Positions 2,023 to 26,544 of a DNA stretch of 45,703 bases are shown piece after piece (position 1 is the stretch's first letter; every line of letters starts with the position of its first letter). Source of the DNA: Methanosarcina sp. (GTDB taxonomy: Archaea; Halobacteriota; Methanosarcinia; Methanosarcinales; Methanosarcinaceae); the NCBI RefSeq assembly GCF_028693135.1, contig NZ_JAQUVZ010000027.1:1-45703 (forward strand). Reading direction: 5' to 3'. Position numbers and translations under genes: made by a program. The notes beneath the pieces were generated by a model, which worked only from the letters and a program-made list of their open reading frames with translations, searched no databases and had not been told where the DNA came from.

Positions 2023-2045
2023 GACCCCTTCATTTCTACTGGAGA
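2023..2045 (-). other. Origin recognition box (ORB), G-string pointing left
   Basis: Read on the minus strand this is TCTCCAGTAGAA followed by ATGAAGGGGTC. It matches the archaeal ORB pattern: a TTCCANTGGAA dyad, then a short spacer, then a run of four Gs. It is the only ORB in this cluster in minus orientation and lies on the left edge of a very AT-rich 230-bp segment. Orc1/Cdc6 is known to bind such boxes; binding here is inferred. Confidence 0.7.
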
Positions 2046-2276
2046 GGAAAAAAGGAAATTGAAAAATAGATTTTGGGAAATAAGTTTATAAAATTCAATT
2101 TAAAATAAAAATTTAATTTTAAACTAAAGATAAAACTGTTTGTGTATTTAAGCTTCTAGATTTTTATGTTTTAATAGTAAAGTATATATACATTTAATTC
2201 TATAACAAAACAACATTATTTTGTTTTCATTACAAAATAAATCTATTTTTTATTTTGTTACCCAAATCCCAAATCC
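2046..2276. other. AT-rich segment between inverted ORBs, candidate duplex-unwinding element
   Basis: This ~230-bp stretch is almost entirely A and T, with long runs such as TTTAAAATAAAAATTTAATT (2098-2117) and TATATACATTTAATT near 2184. A minus-oriented ORB lies on its left and two plus-oriented ORBs on its right. That is the arrangement known from characterised archaeal origins. Its role as the unwinding site is inference. Confidence 0.55.
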
Positions 2277-2300
2277 CTTTCAGTGGAAACCATGGGGTCC
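2277..2300 (+). other. Origin recognition box (ORB)
   Basis: The site reads CTTTCAGTGGAAAC then CATGGGGTCC. It keeps the GTGGAAAC half-dyad and the GGGGT string of the archaeal ORB consensus, with one change in the left half (TTCAG for TCCAG). It is in plus orientation, right of the AT-rich segment. Confidence 0.75.
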
Positions 2301-2314
2301 GGGTGTTATATAAA

Positions 2315-2338
2315 CTTTCCAATGGAAACAAAGGGGTC
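2315..2338 (+). other. Origin recognition box (ORB), best match
   Basis: The site reads CTTTCCAATGGAAAC then AAAGGGGTC. It has an intact TTCCAATGGAA dyad and a GGGGT string at the expected spacing. It is 38 bp from the preceding ORB in the same orientation, close to four helical turns. Confidence 0.8.
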
Positions 2339-2954: not shown

Positions 2955-4484
2955 TCAGGTTTCAAGAGGTGAAATATCTTCTTTGTGGGTAGTTTTTCCA
3001 TGGAGCTTTAAATGGTTTACGCGGTCGAATTCTTTGAGGATTTCTTCTGCAGGACCTTCCTTATCCAGAATACTGAGGAGGTAGATTGTTATACATGAGA
3101 GGAAGAAACCAGGGACAATTTCATACATGTCAAAAATTCCACCTGAGAGTTGCTTCCAGACGATAACGACGAAGCCACCGACAATCATTCCTCCGAGCGC
3201 TCCATTTCTGGTTGTTTTTCTCCAGAAAAGAGAGAATAAGACAACAGGCCCAAAGGCTGCTCCAAATCCTGCCCAGGCATATGAGACCAGGCCCATAACC
3301 GAGTTATTAGGATCTCTCGCTATTAGATATGCAATTGCTGAAATTGCAATAACTGCAAACCTGCCCATCCAGACTAGCTCTTTTTCTCCTGCATCTCTTT
3401 TTACTATTATCCTGTAGATATCTTCGGTAAAGGCAGAAGCAGCCACAAGGAGCTGGGAATCAGCAGTACTCATAATAGCTGCAAGGATAGCCGCAAGGAG
3501 AATTCCTGCAATAACAGGAGTAAAAGTACTGTTTACCATTACCATAAAGATAGTTTCGCTTCCCGCGTCTCCAAGAAACTCAGGATAGAGGTAAGCTCTT
3601 CCGATAATTCCGCCTGCTACAGCAAAAAACAGGGAGATAATAACCCAGACCATTGCAATAAGTCTTGCCTGTTTTATTTTGTCAGGGGATTCTATGGCCA
3701 TAAAACGGACCAGGATATGTGGCATACCAAAGTATCCCAGGCCCCAGGCCAGGTTTGAGATAAGGGGAATTGAGCCTCCAGAAAGAGCAGTCCAGGGGTT
3801 AAGCAGCTGCGGGTCTATACTCTTAATAAGGCTTACAGTCGAATCATAACCTCCCATTCCCTTTAGGGCTGCAAGGGGCACGAAAACAATGGCGCAGACC
3901 ATTAGCATTCCCTGGAAAAAGTCGGTCCAGCAGACAGCCATGAAACCTCCCAGAAATGTGTAGCTAATAATTACCAGTGCGCCGATAAGAAGAGATTGCT
4001 GATAGGGAATTTCAAAAACAGTATTGAAAAGCTTTCCGCCTGCGACAAGTCCGGAGGAAGTGTAAAGCAGGAAAAAGACCAGAATCAGAATAGATGAGAT
4101 AATTCTCAAAGCGTGGCTTTTGTCTCTGAACCTGTTTTCAAAGTACACAGGAATGGTAATAGAATCTCCTGCAATCTGGGTATATTGGCGCAATTTCTTT
4201 GCAACGAATTTCCAGTTCAGGTATGTTCCAGCAGCCAGACCCACTCCTACCCAGATAGATTCCATTCCTGCAAGATAAGCATATCCGGGTAATCCCATTA
4301 GCAACCAGCCGCTCATATCCGATGCCTGCGAACTCAGCGCAGTAACCCAGCTGTTTAGTTTTCTTCCTCCTAAAATATAATCTGCAAGATTCTCCGTTTT
4401 TCGATAATAGAGAACTCCGATGGCGATCATAAAAAGCAGATATACTGCGAAAACAAGTACAATACTAAAATTATCTGATACCAT
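2955..4484 (-). CDS. putP: Sodium:solute symporter, PutP/proline type
   Basis: This is a 509-residue integral membrane protein of the sodium:solute symporter (SSS) family with roughly 12-13 hydrophobic segments, consistent with the LeuT fold. The N-terminal segment begins with an external MVSDNFS, then a helix and YYRKTENLADYILGGRKL, the loop typical of the family. LSSQASDMSGWLLMGLPGYAY (residues ~50-70) carries the Ser/Asp region that binds Na+ and proline in PutP. The signature around residues 150-190 (GLVAGGKLF, GGFMAVCWTDF) is also PutP-like. It most likely imports proline or glycine betaine-like solutes with Na+. Start at ATG 4484; no strong ribosome site is visible because a 19-bp tandem repeat begins within ~10 bases upstream. 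The gene sits between two ORB clusters. The exact substrate is inferred. Confidence 0.88.
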   Translation of the reverse strand: MVSDNFSIVLVFAVYLLFMIAIGVLYYRKTENLADYILGGRKLNSWVTALSSQASDMSGWLLMGLPGYAYLAGMESIWVGVGLAAGTYLNWKFVAKKLRQYTQIAGDSITIPVYFENRFRDKSHALRIISSILILVFFLLYTSSGLVAGGKLFNTVFEIPYQQSLLIGALVIISYTFLGGFMAVCWTDFFQGMLMVCAIVFVPLAALKGMGGYDSTVSLIKSIDPQLLNPWTALSGGSIPLISNLAWGLGYFGMPHILVRFMAIESPDKIKQARLIAMVWVIISLFFAVAGGIIGRAYLYPEFLGDAGSETIFMVMVNSTFTPVIAGILLAAILAAIMSTADSQLLVAASAFTEDIYRIIVKRDAGEKELVWMGRFAVIAISAIAYLIARDPNNSVMGLVSYAWAGFGAAFGPVVLFSLFWRKTTRNGALGGMIVGGFVVIVWKQLSGGIFDMYEIVPGFFLSCITIYLLSILDKEGPAEEILKEFDRVNHLKLHGKTTHKEDISPLET

Positions 4485-4494
4485 TGTTTAACTC

Positions 4495-4643
4495 CAGTTT
4501 TTTTAGTAAACATCAGTTTTTTTAGTAAACATCAGTTTTTTTAGTAAACATCAGTTTTTTTAGTAAACATCAGTTTTTTTAGTAAACATCAGTTTTTTTA
4601 GTAAACATCAGTTTTTTTTAGTAAACATCAGTTTTTAGTAAAT
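4495..4643. repeat. 19-bp tandem repeat directly upstream of the symporter gene
   Basis: The unit CAGTTTTTTTAGTAAACAT is repeated about eight times with slight T-run length variation. It starts about ten bases before the symporter start codon, so the 5' leader, if any, is made of repeats. Slippage in the T-runs could vary promoter-to-start spacing; that effect is inference. Confidence 0.9.
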
Positions 4644-5391
4644 TTCTTGTAAGCTTCTTATATCTAACAAATATCCTGTGTTTTCACAGGTTCCATTATC
4701 TTACAGGTCTCTGTCCTCATAGCTATAGATAAGCAGTTTTCTAAAGGTAACATTATTTCAGCTAAGATTACTTCAGCTAAGATTACTTTCATCTGTAAAT
4801 TTGCCAGTTACAGTGATTCTATCTGTAGCTATGTTTAGAGGCGTATATTATTTAGAACACAATTTTATTGTATGCTATTTATACTGTTAAAAATAATTCA
4901 TAGCAGTTTTATAATACTATTTTGTTCTTCGAACATTATAAACGGTTCGTTTTATTTCGGCGCATTGGGTAAATTATTGAGAGTGTTACAACTTTCGATT
5001 TATCTCTCTTCAAAATTTCCTTTGTTAGCTTAGTTGATAAGTAAAATTACAGTATAAAATCATTAAATGAACAGTTCTAAAATCTAATAAGCTATTCTAA
5101 TAACAAATTTTTAAAAAACAATCAATTTTGGAAACTATACAATTTAAATAAAATTTATAATTAAATACATAAGCATAGCTAATTTTTTATGTATTTACAC
5201 TCCAGAGATATAGTTACTTTTGATGTATATTCCTTATTTTCTGTCAAACTGTCTTTATTTTTTAGGTAATCATTTTGTTATCACCCATCTTCTTAATATC
5301 AAAACTGTTTTTATTTTTAATATATCCACATTCGTTTCAGTATAGCTGTTTGTTTTCTTGTCATTATTATTTTGTGCTAAAAATTTTTAAT
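4644..5391. other. AT-rich intergenic DNA left of the second ORB cluster
   Basis: No gene is visible. From about 4850 to 5280 the sequence is extremely AT-rich (for example 5090-5170). It lies immediately left of three plus-oriented ORB-like sites. The plus-strand open frame at 5275-5544 runs through ORBs and is not supported as a gene. No minus-oriented ORB was found on its left side. Confidence 0.5.
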
Positions 5392-5415
5392 CATTCACTG
5401 GAAGCAAAGGGGTTC
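5392..5415 (+). other. Origin recognition box (ORB)
   Basis: The site reads CATTCACTGGAAGC then AAAGGGGTTC. The TTCACTGGAA dyad and the GGGGT string are at the consensus spacing. It is in plus orientation, about 0.85 kb upstream of orc1. Confidence 0.7.
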
Positions 5416-5430
5416 AATATTTTCCTATAT

Positions 5431-5452
5431 TTTTCCATTCGAAAAAGGGGAT
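5431..5452 (+). other. Degenerate ORB-like site
   Basis: The site reads TTTTCCATTCGAAA then AAGGGGAT. The dyad is imperfect and the spacer to the GGGG run is shorter than in the other copies. It is listed because it lies between two better boxes in the same orientation. Confidence 0.35.
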
Positions 5453-5555
5453 TTAAAACTGACCTCCAGGGGTGCTGGAAGTATAAATCTTTTATTTTTT
5501 TAAAACTGAATCTGATGATATCGATTTATTCAGGGGAAATTTAAGGGAAATGTCC

Positions 5556-5578
5556 GTTCCATTGGAAATGAAGGGGGC
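5556..5578 (+). other. Origin recognition box (ORB)
   Basis: The site reads GTTCCATTGGAAATG then AAGGGGGC. It has an intact TTCCATTGGAA palindrome and a run of five Gs at the expected distance. It is the rightmost box of the second cluster. Confidence 0.75.
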
Positions 5579-6255
5579 TTAACCATAACTATTAATACCG
5601 TGTACTTCCATTGCATCTACTGCAAATATACCTTAAAATCAAATGTTTATATATAAATATAATCTAAAATTTTGGGAAATGAAAATCCCGATTACAGGTT
5701 ATTACAGGTTTTATCAGGGCTTAAGAGATGCTTTAAACTACGTAACTCCCTCTCCACTTTATCCCCTGCCTGTTGAAAACATAAAAATCAGGCATTAACT
5801 TTAAGAAACATGCATTTATCTATCCATTTCCCTTTGTGAAATTCTTATCCATAAGGTTTGACTTATCTAAATTATACTAAACAACAAATCAGGTTTCCAG
5901 AATTACTGAGATTACTGAGAATCAAGAGTAAAAGACACTTTGAAAATTAACAGTTATACCTTTCCATATATCTTTTCCAAGTCTGGGTGATATACTGTCT
6001 GATAGGGTGATATACTGTCTGATATATTCTGTCTGGATGGTGTTCTGAGTTTCCAATATACTAACTTTAAAATTAAAAAAAGGAAAAAAGTACGTATGAA
6101 CTCATAAAGTGTGCATATGTCAATTAAATTTATTTAATGAGTTATTAACTTTGCATACTCTACCGGTGTATTAACCGTACATATTAATTGTCCATATAAA
6201 CCATCTTAACCCGTTACATCTGGGTATTATAATTTTTATGCGAAGAGGGTTATTC
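5579..6255. promoter_or_regulatory. Upstream region of orc1/cdc6
   Basis: This is AT-rich non-coding DNA between the second ORB cluster and orc1. A 20-bp unit, GGGTGATATACTGTCTGATA, occurs twice near 5985-6023. A TATA-like element (CCATATAAACC, about 6192-6202) lies about 60 bases upstream of the preferred start. No coding sequence is supported. Confidence 0.45.
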
Positions 6256-7500
6256 ATGATAAAGGCTCAATCATTAGACGGCTTATTCGAAAAATTACTT
6301 GACGGAAAGTCAATTTTCAAAAACAAAGAGGTTCTTCGTCCTTCTTATACACCGGATCTGTTATTACACAGGAACGAACAGATAAACAGCCTTGCAACTA
6401 TCCTTGTTTCTGCACTCAGGGGAGAGACCCCCTCCAATGTCCTGATTTACGGGAAAACAGGGACAGGAAAGACTGCAGTGACCAGATATGTAGGAAAAGA
6501 ACTTGAAAGGGTAAGTGAAGAGAAGTCCATTTTTTGTTCTGTTGTTTATATTAACTGTGAGGTAATCGATACTCAGTACAGGCTTCTTGCAAATCTTGCC
6601 AGGCATTTTGAAGAAGAGGTCCCTATGACCGGGTGGCCCACGGACCAGGTCTTCATGAAATTTAAGGAAGCAATCGATGCAAGAGATCAGGTTATTATCA
6701 TCATTCTGGACGAAATTGACAAGCTGATCAAGAAAGGTGATGATGTCCTCTACAACCTTTCAAGAATCAATACCGACCTCAAAAAAGCCAAGGTCAGCAT
6801 GATAGGGGTTTCTAACGACCTTAAATTTACTGAGTTTCTGGATCCCAGAGTCAGAAGTTCCCTGGGTGAAGAAGAACTGATCTTTCCGCCTTATGATGCT
6901 GAGCAGATCAGCGACATCCTGAAGCAAAGGGCAAAAATGGCTTACAACGATGGAGTGCTGGGCGAAATGGTAATCCCTCTCTGTGCAGCCTTTGCAGCTC
7001 AGGAACACGGCGATGCCCGCAGGGCACTTGACCTTCTGCGCGTTTCAGGAGAAATTGCAGAGAGAGAAAACCAGCCCCAGGTTCTTGAAGAGCACGTCAG
7101 GCGTGCGCAGGAAAAGATCGAAGTCGACCGCGTCGTAGAAGTTGTAAGGACCCTCCCCACCCAGTCCAAGCTTGTGCTCTACAGCATCATCATGCTCAGG
7201 AGCCGGGGAAGAGAAGGCAAGAACGTCACAACCGGTGAGATGTATAATGTCTACCGCCAGCTCTGTCATCATATCGACGTGGATATCCTTACCCAGCGCA
7301 GGGTTACCGATCTGATGTCAGAACTTGACATGCTGGGAATAGTGAATGCCGTGGTAGTTAGCAAGGGTCGTTACGGAAGGACAAAAGAAATTTCGTTGAG
7401 CGTTCCTGTGGAAAACACCCGCAAAGTACTTCTTGAAGACTACAGGCTCAAACCTCTTGTAGATTTCAAAGCTTCTGTCTTTAACAAGATGTTTTCATAA
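6256..7500 (+). CDS. cdc6: Orc1/Cdc6 replication initiator, AAA+ ATPase
   Basis: The gene encodes the archaeal initiator that binds ORBs, melts the origin and loads MCM. The preferred start is ATG 6256 (MIKAQSLDGLFEKLL, 414 residues), because GAGG at 6245-6248 sits seven bases upstream; ATG 6238 would add six residues. The AAA+ domain contains Walker A YGKTGTGKTA (near residue 70), Walker B IIILDEIDK (near 155), a sensor 1 region (MIGVSNDLKF) and the arginine-rich DPRVRSSL stretch. The C-terminal third (from ~residue 285) is the winged-helix ORB-binding domain. The length is normal for the family. It lies directly downstream of ORB-bearing AT-rich DNA, which is the standard archaeal origin arrangement. 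The product probably binds these boxes and may regulate its own gene; that autoregulation is inferred. Confidence 0.95.
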   Translation: MIKAQSLDGLFEKLLDGKSIFKNKEVLRPSYTPDLLLHRNEQINSLATILVSALRGETPSNVLIYGKTGTGKTAVTRYVGKELERVSEEKSIFCSVVYINCEVIDTQYRLLANLARHFEEEVPMTGWPTDQVFMKFKEAIDARDQVIIIILDEIDKLIKKGDDVLYNLSRINTDLKKAKVSMIGVSNDLKFTEFLDPRVRSSLGEEELIFPPYDAEQISDILKQRAKMAYNDGVLGEMVIPLCAAFAAQEHGDARRALDLLRVSGEIAERENQPQVLEEHVRRAQEKIEVDRVVEVVRTLPTQSKLVLYSIIMLRSRGREGKNVTTGEMYNVYRQLCHHIDVDILTQRRVTDLMSELDMLGIVNAVVVSKGRYGRTKEISLSVPVENTRKVLLEDYRLKPLVDFKASVFNKMFS

Positions 7501-8102
7501 AGTCCGGATTGTCTTCTTCATCCGGCCTTTCCGGCTTTTCCACACATACTATAAAGCAACCTTAACTTATTCTAAGACAATTTTAACTCATTCTAAAGTA
7601 TTCTAAAGTATTCTAAAGTATTCTAAAGTATTCTAAAGTATTCTAAAGAACTCTGCCCGTTTCAACCTATTCTTAAAATATGTTCGCAAAGACTCTTCCT
7701 TTTGATCTCCTGGTTTTTACGGAAAAGTTTTTTCCCACAATTTTCTTTCAAGAAGTTTTTCCTTCAATCTTTCAGAAAATAGCCTTAGTTTTTCAGGAAA
7801 TAATATATATGATCCTGTGGTTTGACTAGGATCGTATCATAATTAATATGTCAGGTATAGATCTATATTATTCAAGTTCCCATACTATTCAAGTTTCATA
7901 CTATTCAAGTTTCATACTATTCAAGTTTCATACTATTCAAGTTCCATACTATTCAAGTTTCTACCAGAGTTAATGAGCCAAATTTACTAACTTGAGTTTC
8001 TACTGAGATTCTAATTGAGGTTTCTATTGAGGCTTCTACTCAAACTTATAGCTCAGGCTTATAATTCAAATCTAAGGATTCAAGTTTAAAAGGTAATTTT
8101 TG
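7501..8102. repeat. Intergenic tandem repeats between orc1 and the UPF0200 gene
   Basis: A weak GC hairpin followed by TTTT (about 7520-7540) may end the orc1 transcript. A 10-bp unit, TTCTAAAGTA, runs from 7591 to 7648 in about six exact copies. A 16-bp unit, CATACTATTCAAGTTT, runs from about 7866 to 7961 in about six copies and decays into looser GTTTCTACTGAG-like units up to ~8045. No gene is visible. Confidence 0.75.
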
Positions 8103-20771: not shown

Positions 20772-20795
20772 AACCCCTTTATTTCCACTGGAACC
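20772..20795 (-). other. Origin recognition box (ORB)
   Basis: On the minus strand the site reads GGTTCCAGTGGAAAT then AAAGGGGTT, an intact ORB dyad plus G-string. It lies 14.5 kb from orc1 and 0.5 kb from the 3' end of the RPA1 gene. Confidence 0.75.
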
Positions 20796-20949: not shown

Positions 20950-20973
20950 GACCCCTACATTTCCACTGGAACC
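20950..20973 (-). other. Origin recognition box (ORB)
   Basis: On the minus strand the site reads GGTTCCAGTGGAAAT then GTAGGGGTC. It has the same orientation as the box at 20772 and is centred 178 bp from it, with AT-rich DNA between and to the right. Confidence 0.75.
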
Positions 20974-25476: not shown

Positions 25477-26544
25477 TCAGTCTACCGATACTTCAAAAAG
25501 TCCATCTTTTTCTTTTATCCTGAACTTCACCTCCAGAAACTGTTCTGTGACCCAGATGTTTGTTGCCGCATGTAAAGTTATTTCACGGGCCGTGTAAGAA
25601 CTGTTTCCTGCAAGTGCCATATACGGGATCAACTGGTCTGCTAGATGTACATCTACAGAGGCTTCTGTTCTGAGTTCCGAGATGATTTCTTCTGCAGCGC
25701 GCCTGCCCACTTTTTCAGCAGGCAGCCCTCTTTCTCCAAGGGCACTTCCCCCACAATAACCAGACCAGAGGGTTATCCCGCTTCCTGTGGAAAGCAATTC
25801 GCAGGCTCGGACATTGATCCGTGAACCGTATCCGGCTTCAAGAAGCATGGATTCGGCAGCTTCAGCCTGGCGGGATGGCACATGCGCCGGAAGATTCGAT
25901 GCATGTGAAATTCCCATGACTTCTTTCCCATGGTTCTGTTTCTTCTCTCCTTTCTGGTTTTTTTCTTCGATTCGGTTTTCTCCGCCTTTTTTGTTTTCTC
26001 CTTCCTTCCGGAAATGAAAACCACGAAGCTTGCAGGGTTCAAACACAGCTGAGACCTCGCCTCCTCCCCTGGGATAGTAACCGCGTTTTTTCAGGGTTAC
26101 GCTGCCCGCGTATCCAAGCTGTTCAAGGGCCCTGAAGGTTACATGCTGAAGGTAGTCAATCGTAGGGGACCAGGCAACATCAGTTCCTCCCCTTATCGTT
26201 AGTTCGACCTTTTCTTTTGCGAAAGGCAGGGCTGGCATAAGGCTTTGTAGAAGCAGGGTTATGCTTCCTGCGGTCCCTATATCAATCTCATATTTACCCC
26301 CCTTTATTTCCACTGGAGCAAAAAATAACTCTGAAGAACCCGGAAAAAGTCCTGAAACCCGTGCTCCGCAGATCCTGGCTGCAGTTTCCAGAGCTTTCAA
26401 ATGCTGTTGTTTCAGGCCGGGATTTGGTCTGTTTTTCCTTATGTTCGTAACCTTTACTTTTTTTCCGGTAACTGCAGAAAGGGCAACAGCTGTTCTGACA
26501 ACTTGTCCCCCTCCTTCCCCATATGAACCGTCAATTTCTATCAT
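25477..26544 (-). CDS. rtcA: RNA 3'-terminal phosphate cyclase
   Basis: RtcA converts a 3'-phosphate RNA end to a 2',3'-cyclic phosphate using ATP. DGSYGEGGGQVVRTAVALSA (residues 5-24) is the family's N-terminal signature. RPNPGLKQQHLKALE (~40-54) and GRRAAEEII also match. HLADQLIPYMALAG near residue 310 holds the active-site His that is adenylylated. A hydrophilic, Lys/Glu/Asn-rich insert (about residues 180-215) lies in the middle and is not typical. The gene also carries an ORB-like sequence at 26296. ATG 26544 has GGGAGAGGG just upstream. It lies 130 bases downstream of the FAD oxidoreductase gene on the same strand. Confidence 0.93.
   Translation of the reverse strand: MIEIDGSYGEGGGQVVRTAVALSAVTGKKVKVTNIRKNRPNPGLKQQHLKALETAARICGARVSGLFPGSSELFFAPVEIKGGKYEIDIGTAGSITLLLQSLMPALPFAKEKVELTIRGGTDVAWSPTIDYLQHVTFRALEQLGYAGSVTLKKRGYYPRGGGEVSAVFEPCKLRGFHFRKEGENKKGGENRIEEKNQKGEKKQNHGKEVMGISHASNLPAHVPSRQAEAAESMLLEAGYGSRINVRACELLSTGSGITLWSGYCGGSALGERGLPAEKVGRRAAEEIISELRTEASVDVHLADQLIPYMALAGNSSYTAREITLHAATNIWVTEQFLEVKFRIKEKDGLFEVSVD
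26296..26319 (-). other. ORB-like site inside the rtcA coding region
   Basis: On the minus strand the site reads GCTCCAGTGGAAAT then AAAGGGGGGT. The dyad is one base short of perfect and the G-run is longer than usual. Being coding sequence (residues ~76-83), it may be coincidental, but its match is as good as several intergenic boxes. Confidence 0.5.

Follow-up and report, generated by a model that had tools for sequence, protein, structure and literature searches.

A conserved ORB upstream of orc1 in Methanosarcina is joined to a promoter-like element: a candidate autoregulatory site in a stretched replication origin

The window, i.e., the whole 45,703-nt stretch of Methanosarcina sp. DNA analyzed here, carries an orc1 gene encoding an ORC1-type product and, upstream of it, two clusters of ORBs that are separated by a sodium symporter gene. 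The ORB consensus first used for locating these boxes, which we take to be TCCANTGGAAACNAAGGGG, has 17 defined positions. The features of the region, from left to right, are the following.

2025..2043, minus strand: ORB1, the left arm of cluster 1, with 2 mismatches and 37.3 bits; its orientation is the same across the genus
2044..2278, no strand: AT-rich stretch between ORB1 and ORB2, 81% AT, the likely unwinding element, with a conserved block from about 2175
2279..2297, plus strand: ORB2, of the CATGGGG type, exactly 39 bp before ORB3
2318..2336, plus strand: ORB3, a perfect consensus match
2955..4484, minus strand: putP, a sodium/proline symporter gene, a lineage-specific insert between the clusters
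4841..5392, no strand: AT-rich stretch left of cluster 2
5394..5412, plus strand: ORB4, with 2 mismatches to the consensus, 164 bp before ORB5
5434..5450, plus strand: degenerate ORB-like box with an inner spacer 2 nt short, 124 bp before ORB5
5558..5577, plus strand: ORB5, the strong box of cluster 2, with 1 mismatch
6256..7500, plus strand: orc1, the Orc1/Cdc6 initiator gene; 6256 is the likely start, its codon taken from the alignment

ORB4 and ORB5 both have the sequence character of euryarchaeal ORBs, a TTCCAnTGGAAA dyad followed by a G-rich end. With a weight matrix made from 113 boxes of 29 genomes, the window's own boxes included, ORB4 scored 22.7 bits and ORB5 34.3 bits, and the degenerate box (TTCCATTCGAAA--AAGGGG) scored 23.2 bits once two N had been inserted. 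When the window's genome and three near relatives were left out of the matrix, ORB4 still scored 19.9 bits and ORB5 32.6 bits, and both were among only nine sites of at least 12 bits in the 45.7-kb window. In 2000 dinucleotide shuffles of 4485-6255, a score of 22 bits was reached once and 34 bits never. A search with the ORB pattern at one mismatch found boxes in all 30 Methanosarcina genomes sampled, while the reversed control pattern gave a single match overall. Chance similarity as the source of the cluster 2 boxes is ruled out by the shuffles, the reversed pattern and the leave-out matrix. A sequence-only reading of this DNA had described two good boxes and one degenerate box, all in plus orientation upstream of orc1 and to the right of a 0.5-kb AT-rich stretch; the sequence matches and the shuffle test bear out the boxes, and the stretch proved to be 552 bp long with an AT content of 76.8%, compared to 57.8% for the whole window.

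Twenty-nine of the 30 Methanosarcina genomes have orc1 (G026, about 60% complete, gave no orc1 match), and in all 29 a plus-strand box of at least 22 bits, ORB5, lies 560-1429 bp before the gene. The conservation among related genomes to which the sequence-only reading had looked thus holds in full for ORB5, and for ORB4 only in the putP/mazei-like clade, where that box is clear; the degenerate box is recognizable in the aligned genus rows and weak in several. The cluster 2 boxes are real and ancient. In the complete records of four genomes (G004, G005, G008, and G009) base 1 is placed 20 bp before ORB5, and in others it is near ORB5, so those who numbered the records seem to have taken ORB5 as the origin. 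Cluster 1, consisting of minus-strand ORB1, the AT-rich stretch, and plus-strand ORB2 and ORB3 39 bp apart, was present upstream of orc1 in 23 of the 29 genomes. As for the remaining six, the contigs of G012, G015, G019, and G023 end too soon, and cluster 1 was not found in the 1.5 kb visible upstream of orc1 in G016 or in the 8 kb visible in G017.

Taken together, the two clusters show the arrangement expected of an archaeal oriC, inverted ORBs around an AT-rich stretch beside orc1. Cluster 2 by itself lacks the inversion, since all of its boxes are on the plus strand and there is no minus-strand box to the left of 4841-5392. Unwinding is likelier at cluster 1 than at cluster 2. Local GC skew showed a clear switch at neither cluster, and gene direction probably dominates it. 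Most of the family's other genera that were examined had the boxes in one compact array, with minus-strand ORB1, the AT-rich stretch, ORB2, ORB3 39 bp on and ORB5 a further 84-138 bp on, all within about 0.8 kb of orc1; the array differs in G032, G039, G056, G059, and G101. Genera with short intergenic regions among the orc1 relatives include Methanolobus, Methanococcoides, Methanohalophilus, and Methanosalsum. Given this single compact array in other genera, cluster 2 would be the old gene-proximal end of one origin, and the layout in Methanosarcina is best read as an origin since stretched by growth of the interval and, in one clade, also by putP. The ORB3-ORB5 spacings of the compact genera do cluster, and whole helical turns were considered as an explanation and rejected, since any period between 10 and 11 would suit the values and the genomes share ancestry. 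The two clusters were on different contigs in G017, in which contig C21 has orc1 and ORB5 without the usual neighbors tested, and cluster 1, here with two boxes on each side, lies beside mfnA on contig C39; a misassembly is possible. The short G016 contig with orc1 and cluster 2 likewise showed no usual neighbor.

The putP product matches TIGR02121 above the cut-off. The gene was found between the clusters in eight of the 23 readable Methanosarcina genomes (G000, G001, G007, G009, G010, where it is in two pieces, G011, G020, and G022), with an ORB3-ORB5 gap of 2873-5427 bp in these eight and of 343-1349 bp in the other 15. It also occupies the same place in genera g4 and g5 (G033, G036, G037, and G035). 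G008, the sister of the window genome on the orc1 tree, matches both flanks of putP yet has no putP, and on that tree (38 genes, nine rows unlabeled) the putP label changes three times, which one gain and two losses would fit. This patchy presence, the compact arrays elsewhere and the split in G017 indicate that putP is an insert and not a working part of the origin. The bipartite origin with a symporter gene inside it that had been proposed from the sequence therefore stands as anatomy, in that conservation extends to both clusters and here they have putP between them; on the functional side, putP is lineage-specific, and a requirement of both halves for initiation is conjectural. Short tandem repeats were noted in the intergenic DNA beside putP (4500-4640) and downstream of orc1 (7590-7650 and 7860-7960).

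In the alignment of cluster 2 across the genus, two further features lie in the DNA just after ORB5.

5582..5597, plus strand: BRE/TATA-like part, ACCATAACTATTAATA, starting 24 bp after the ORB5 start
5606..5624, plus strand: CTTCCATTGCATCTACTGCA-type dyad part, whose right half is TGGA instead of TGCA in the compact genera

The best-conserved 40 bp near cluster 2 are 5584-5623, with a mean column identity of 0.96 in 28 Methanosarcina rows (G013, masked with N, was omitted), whereas the best 40 bp around cluster 1 reached 0.92 in 22 rows; the first bases of the element were invariant in all 28 readable rows. The order of the compound site is ORB5, ACCATAAnnnTTAATA exactly 24 bp from the ORB5 start, and then a TTCCATTG-type dyad. 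Among genomes of the other genera of the family, the motif was located 23-25 bp after the ORB start in 35 of 40 and the element was recognized at no more than 6 mismatches of 34 in 29 of 40, the g10 rows keeping mainly its first part. Departures from the pattern were G033, which keeps the element with ORB5 gone, G048, which has no scoring box, and G032, G039, and G056, which lack the pair. Outside the family, the motif lay at exactly +24 from the ORB start in 25 of 25 loci, drawn by title or rank from 80 orc1 loci, against a background of 4.3% for an equally lax motif in the intergenic DNA of the window. The 25-base core of the element is single copy in its own genome at up to 3 mismatches. 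A 33-base pattern allowing up to 3 mismatches was found in 33 of 111 family genomes, all in g1, g4, and g5; at the level of the order, a gapped pattern of greater stringency matched 30 of 185 genomes, members of g2 and g14 among them. Together, these data indicated that ORB5 is part of a compound site in which the box is fused to an element resembling a promoter.

The loci outside the family suggest which gene this element would serve. In most Methanoperedens-type loci the ORB is followed after 4 bp by ACCAnAAnTnTTAATA, next by DNA that includes TTCCATTG or a variant of it, and finally by a GGAGG-type site ahead of the start codon; since the unit ends there just before the orc1 ribosome-binding site, it can be read as the orc1 core promoter with an abutting Orc1 box. 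The available text on Methanolobus psychrophilus gives a distance of 19-22 nt from TATA box to transcript start (PMC5378194), which by geometry only would put the Methanoperedens-type start at the end of the unit, with a leader of about 20 nt. The predicted start of the Methanosarcina orc1 transcript is about 5616-5620, within the dyad. In four ANME-2-type loci (L315, L325, L326, and L333), which have a more divergent motif, some 190 bp separate the unit from the match start, and in Methanosarcina its distance to orc1 is 511-1380 bp. The variable ORB5-orc1 distance of 560-1429 bp had been considered as an argument against autoregulation and was dropped, since the unit directly precedes orc1 in other families.

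If the unit still drives orc1 in Methanosarcina, the spacer must be transcribed, which defines one more feature.

5625..6255, plus strand: proposed long orc1 leader, depleted of plus-strand T-runs across the genus

Archaeal RNA polymerase stops at T-runs. In 26.6 kb of element-orc1 spacer from 29 Methanosarcina genomes, plus-strand T-runs of at least 6 numbered 3, compared to 34.4 expected from dinucleotide shuffles, an 11-fold depletion, and A-runs were also somewhat low (67, with 97.8 expected). The ORB3-ORB5 gap of 23 genomes, with putP removed, had 145 T-runs with 131.7 expected. For T-runs of at least 5 the respective values were 32 with 94.4 expected in the spacer and 316 with 269.8 expected in the gap. 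The genomes are related, so these counts are not 29 independent tests; the contrast between the two neighboring intervals is strong. Several observations complicate the promoter reading. TTAATA is a weak TATA box, a second TATA-like stretch occurs near 5646, and orc1 might have a proximal promoter of its own in the moderately conserved block that immediately precedes it. An orc1 leader reaching 1.4 kb would also be of uncommon length, and in the departing genomes named above (G033, G048, G032, G039, and G056) the box or the pair is missing.

ORB matches also occur outside the origin, at two places within the window.

20774-20792 and 20952-20970, minus strand: strong ORB pair, 178 bp apart, between the 3′ end of the RPA gene and a CBS-domain gene
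26299-26317, minus strand: near-perfect ORB inside the rtcA coding sequence, present in 17 of 18 genomes mapped

The RPA/CBS pair, about 14.5 kb downstream of orc1, was present with a spacing of 168-179 bp in all 18 mapped Methanosarcina genomes and also in the g5 genome G037. Within the rtcA box, the codons CCA, GAA, and ATA did not vary in 17 of 17 rows, and GGG was shared by 16, compared to 10% of 175 invariant-residue rtcA codons that were identical in all rows; this fixity points to selection at the DNA level. Another site, distal and hundreds of kb away from orc1, has two or three boxes between convergent genes and is flanked on one side by genes for a DeoC-family aldolase and, next to it, a dCTP deaminase, and on the other by what is presumably a radical-SAM-like gene. 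It was present in all eight genomes fetched for the boxes listed there (L118, L119, L135-L139, and L158), and in the window's own genome a weaker box is enclosed by this gene pair (C70:12678, L048). Such conserved ORBs outside the origin make a wider role of Orc1 boxes plausible.

The sequence-only reading had also offered an autoregulatory site for orc1, and this is the reading we favor, given the fixed 24-bp fusion, the promoter-like element before orc1 elsewhere, the avoidance of T-runs, the single copy of the element in its own genome and, in G017, the retention of cluster 2 with orc1 apart from cluster 1. With slightly better than even confidence, we propose that cluster 2 serves orc1 as an autoregulatory promoter and is the gene-proximal end of an origin that has been stretched. 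ORB5 would be fused to the orc1 core promoter, with ACCATAAnnnTTAATA as its BRE/TATA-like part, and Orc1 bound to ORB5, with possible help from ORB4, the degenerate box, and the dyad, would compete with TFB/TBP for space. Abundant Orc1 would then lower orc1 transcription, a negative autoregulation tied to the origin; that Orc1 represses rather than activates is a guess that leans only modestly to repression. In Methanosarcina the leader between promoter and orc1 would have lengthened to 0.5-1.4 kb; the distance to cluster 1 would have increased too, in one clade by gain of putP, and initial unwinding would most likely take place at cluster 1.

One alternative is a functional role in initiation, cluster 2 then being a working arm of a bipartite origin in which Orc1 on ORB4/ORB5 joins melting or helicase loading across a loop of 0.3-5.4 kb. 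The compact genera, where ORB5 stands 84-138 bp from ORB3 in one array with every box conserved, would agree with it, and so would the AT-rich stretch before cluster 2, whose duplex stability is weak, much like that of the cluster 1 stretch. However, the distance from ORB3 to ORB5 ranges from 343 to 5427 bp within one genus, the two clusters are on separate contigs in G017, the AT-rich stretch of cluster 2 has no inverted box on its left, and the promoter-like element rather than the boxes is the best-conserved part of the cluster, and we regard a working arm as unlikely. Cluster 2 might instead act as an Orc1 sink, like the ORB-rich region beside cdc6E of Haloarcula hispanica; the further conserved ORB sites outside the Methanosarcina origin and the genetic precedent, in the available text of PMC3936714, for a titration site beside an initiator gene speak for titration, but most species of one clade keep just one strong box, and a sink has no need of a fixed 24-bp fusion to a promoter-like element, which makes it very improbable. 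Slightly less probable again is that the element serves to express a distinct small RNA or small protein and not orc1. Conserved spacer blocks at about 5640-5770 and 5785-5830 and the second TATA-like stretch could be accommodated in this way; nevertheless, the leader gave no Rfam match of note and no consensus fold, the unit directly precedes orc1 in other families, and the loss of T-runs continues to orc1. A minus-strand small gene through the 43-bp element was likewise rejected, since its reading frame loses the start codon in 3 of 28 genomes and is stopped or changed in others.

The autoregulatory promoter may be one piece of something larger. We suggest tentatively, and as a view that is rather unlikely to hold as a whole, that across Methanosarcinales orc1 is governed by one compound site, in which its core promoter is locked to an origin box at a constant 24 bp and which would sense, at the origin, how much initiator is available; that in Methanosarcina this site, while almost unchanged in sequence, has come to lie as far as kilobases from where unwinding takes place; and that, with the boxes outside the origin (the RPA pair, rtcA, and the distal site), it forms part of an Orc1 control network spanning the chromosome. 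For the question of how archaea adjust initiator levels and couple them to origin firing, the compound site provides a 70-bp target in which point mutations could separate initiator supply from origin function. The gain and loss of putP and the split in G017 can serve as natural experiments that show how much stretching an origin tolerates. According to the available text of a 2014 review, Methanothermobacter thermautotrophicus was the only methanogen with an experimentally shown origin, while for M. acetivorans and M. mazei skew or Z-curve analysis had predicted one origin each (PMC3984812). The accessible text of the open-licence literature, in which the sequence itself is not searchable, yielded no mention of an ORB-plus-ACCATAA unit or of orc1 autoregulation in Methanosarcinales.

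Among known systems, the locus resembles the euryarchaeal oriC beside orc1/cdc6 in its ORB sequence, in the inversion of ORB1 relative to ORB2/ORB3 around an AT-rich stretch and in the adjacent orc1; it differs in that the array is stretched: one group of boxes and orc1 itself can be as far as kilobases from the AT-rich stretch, and in one clade a gene has come between. The ORB-rich region oriC2D of Haloarcula hispanica is also similar, being an additional ORB group by the initiator gene cdc6E and apart from the active origin. In the available text it has 11 ORBs in 722 bp downstream of cdc6E, and genetics showed that it lowers oriC2 activity (PMC3936714), whereas here the boxes are few, lie upstream of orc1, are fused to a promoter-like element and are known from sequence. 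The ORB repeats of the DP1 gene in Thermococcales, as far as the available text describes them (PMC2643942), are likewise ORBs outside the origin proper in or by nearby replication genes; gene and order differ, and the likeness concerns the RPA and rtcA sites and not cluster 2. In bacteria, although proteins and boxes are unrelated and the regulation proposed here is read from sequence, the DnaA boxes in the dnaA promoter present, in the available text of PMC3936714, the same design, an initiator box placed in the promoter of the initiator's own gene, by or within the origin region.
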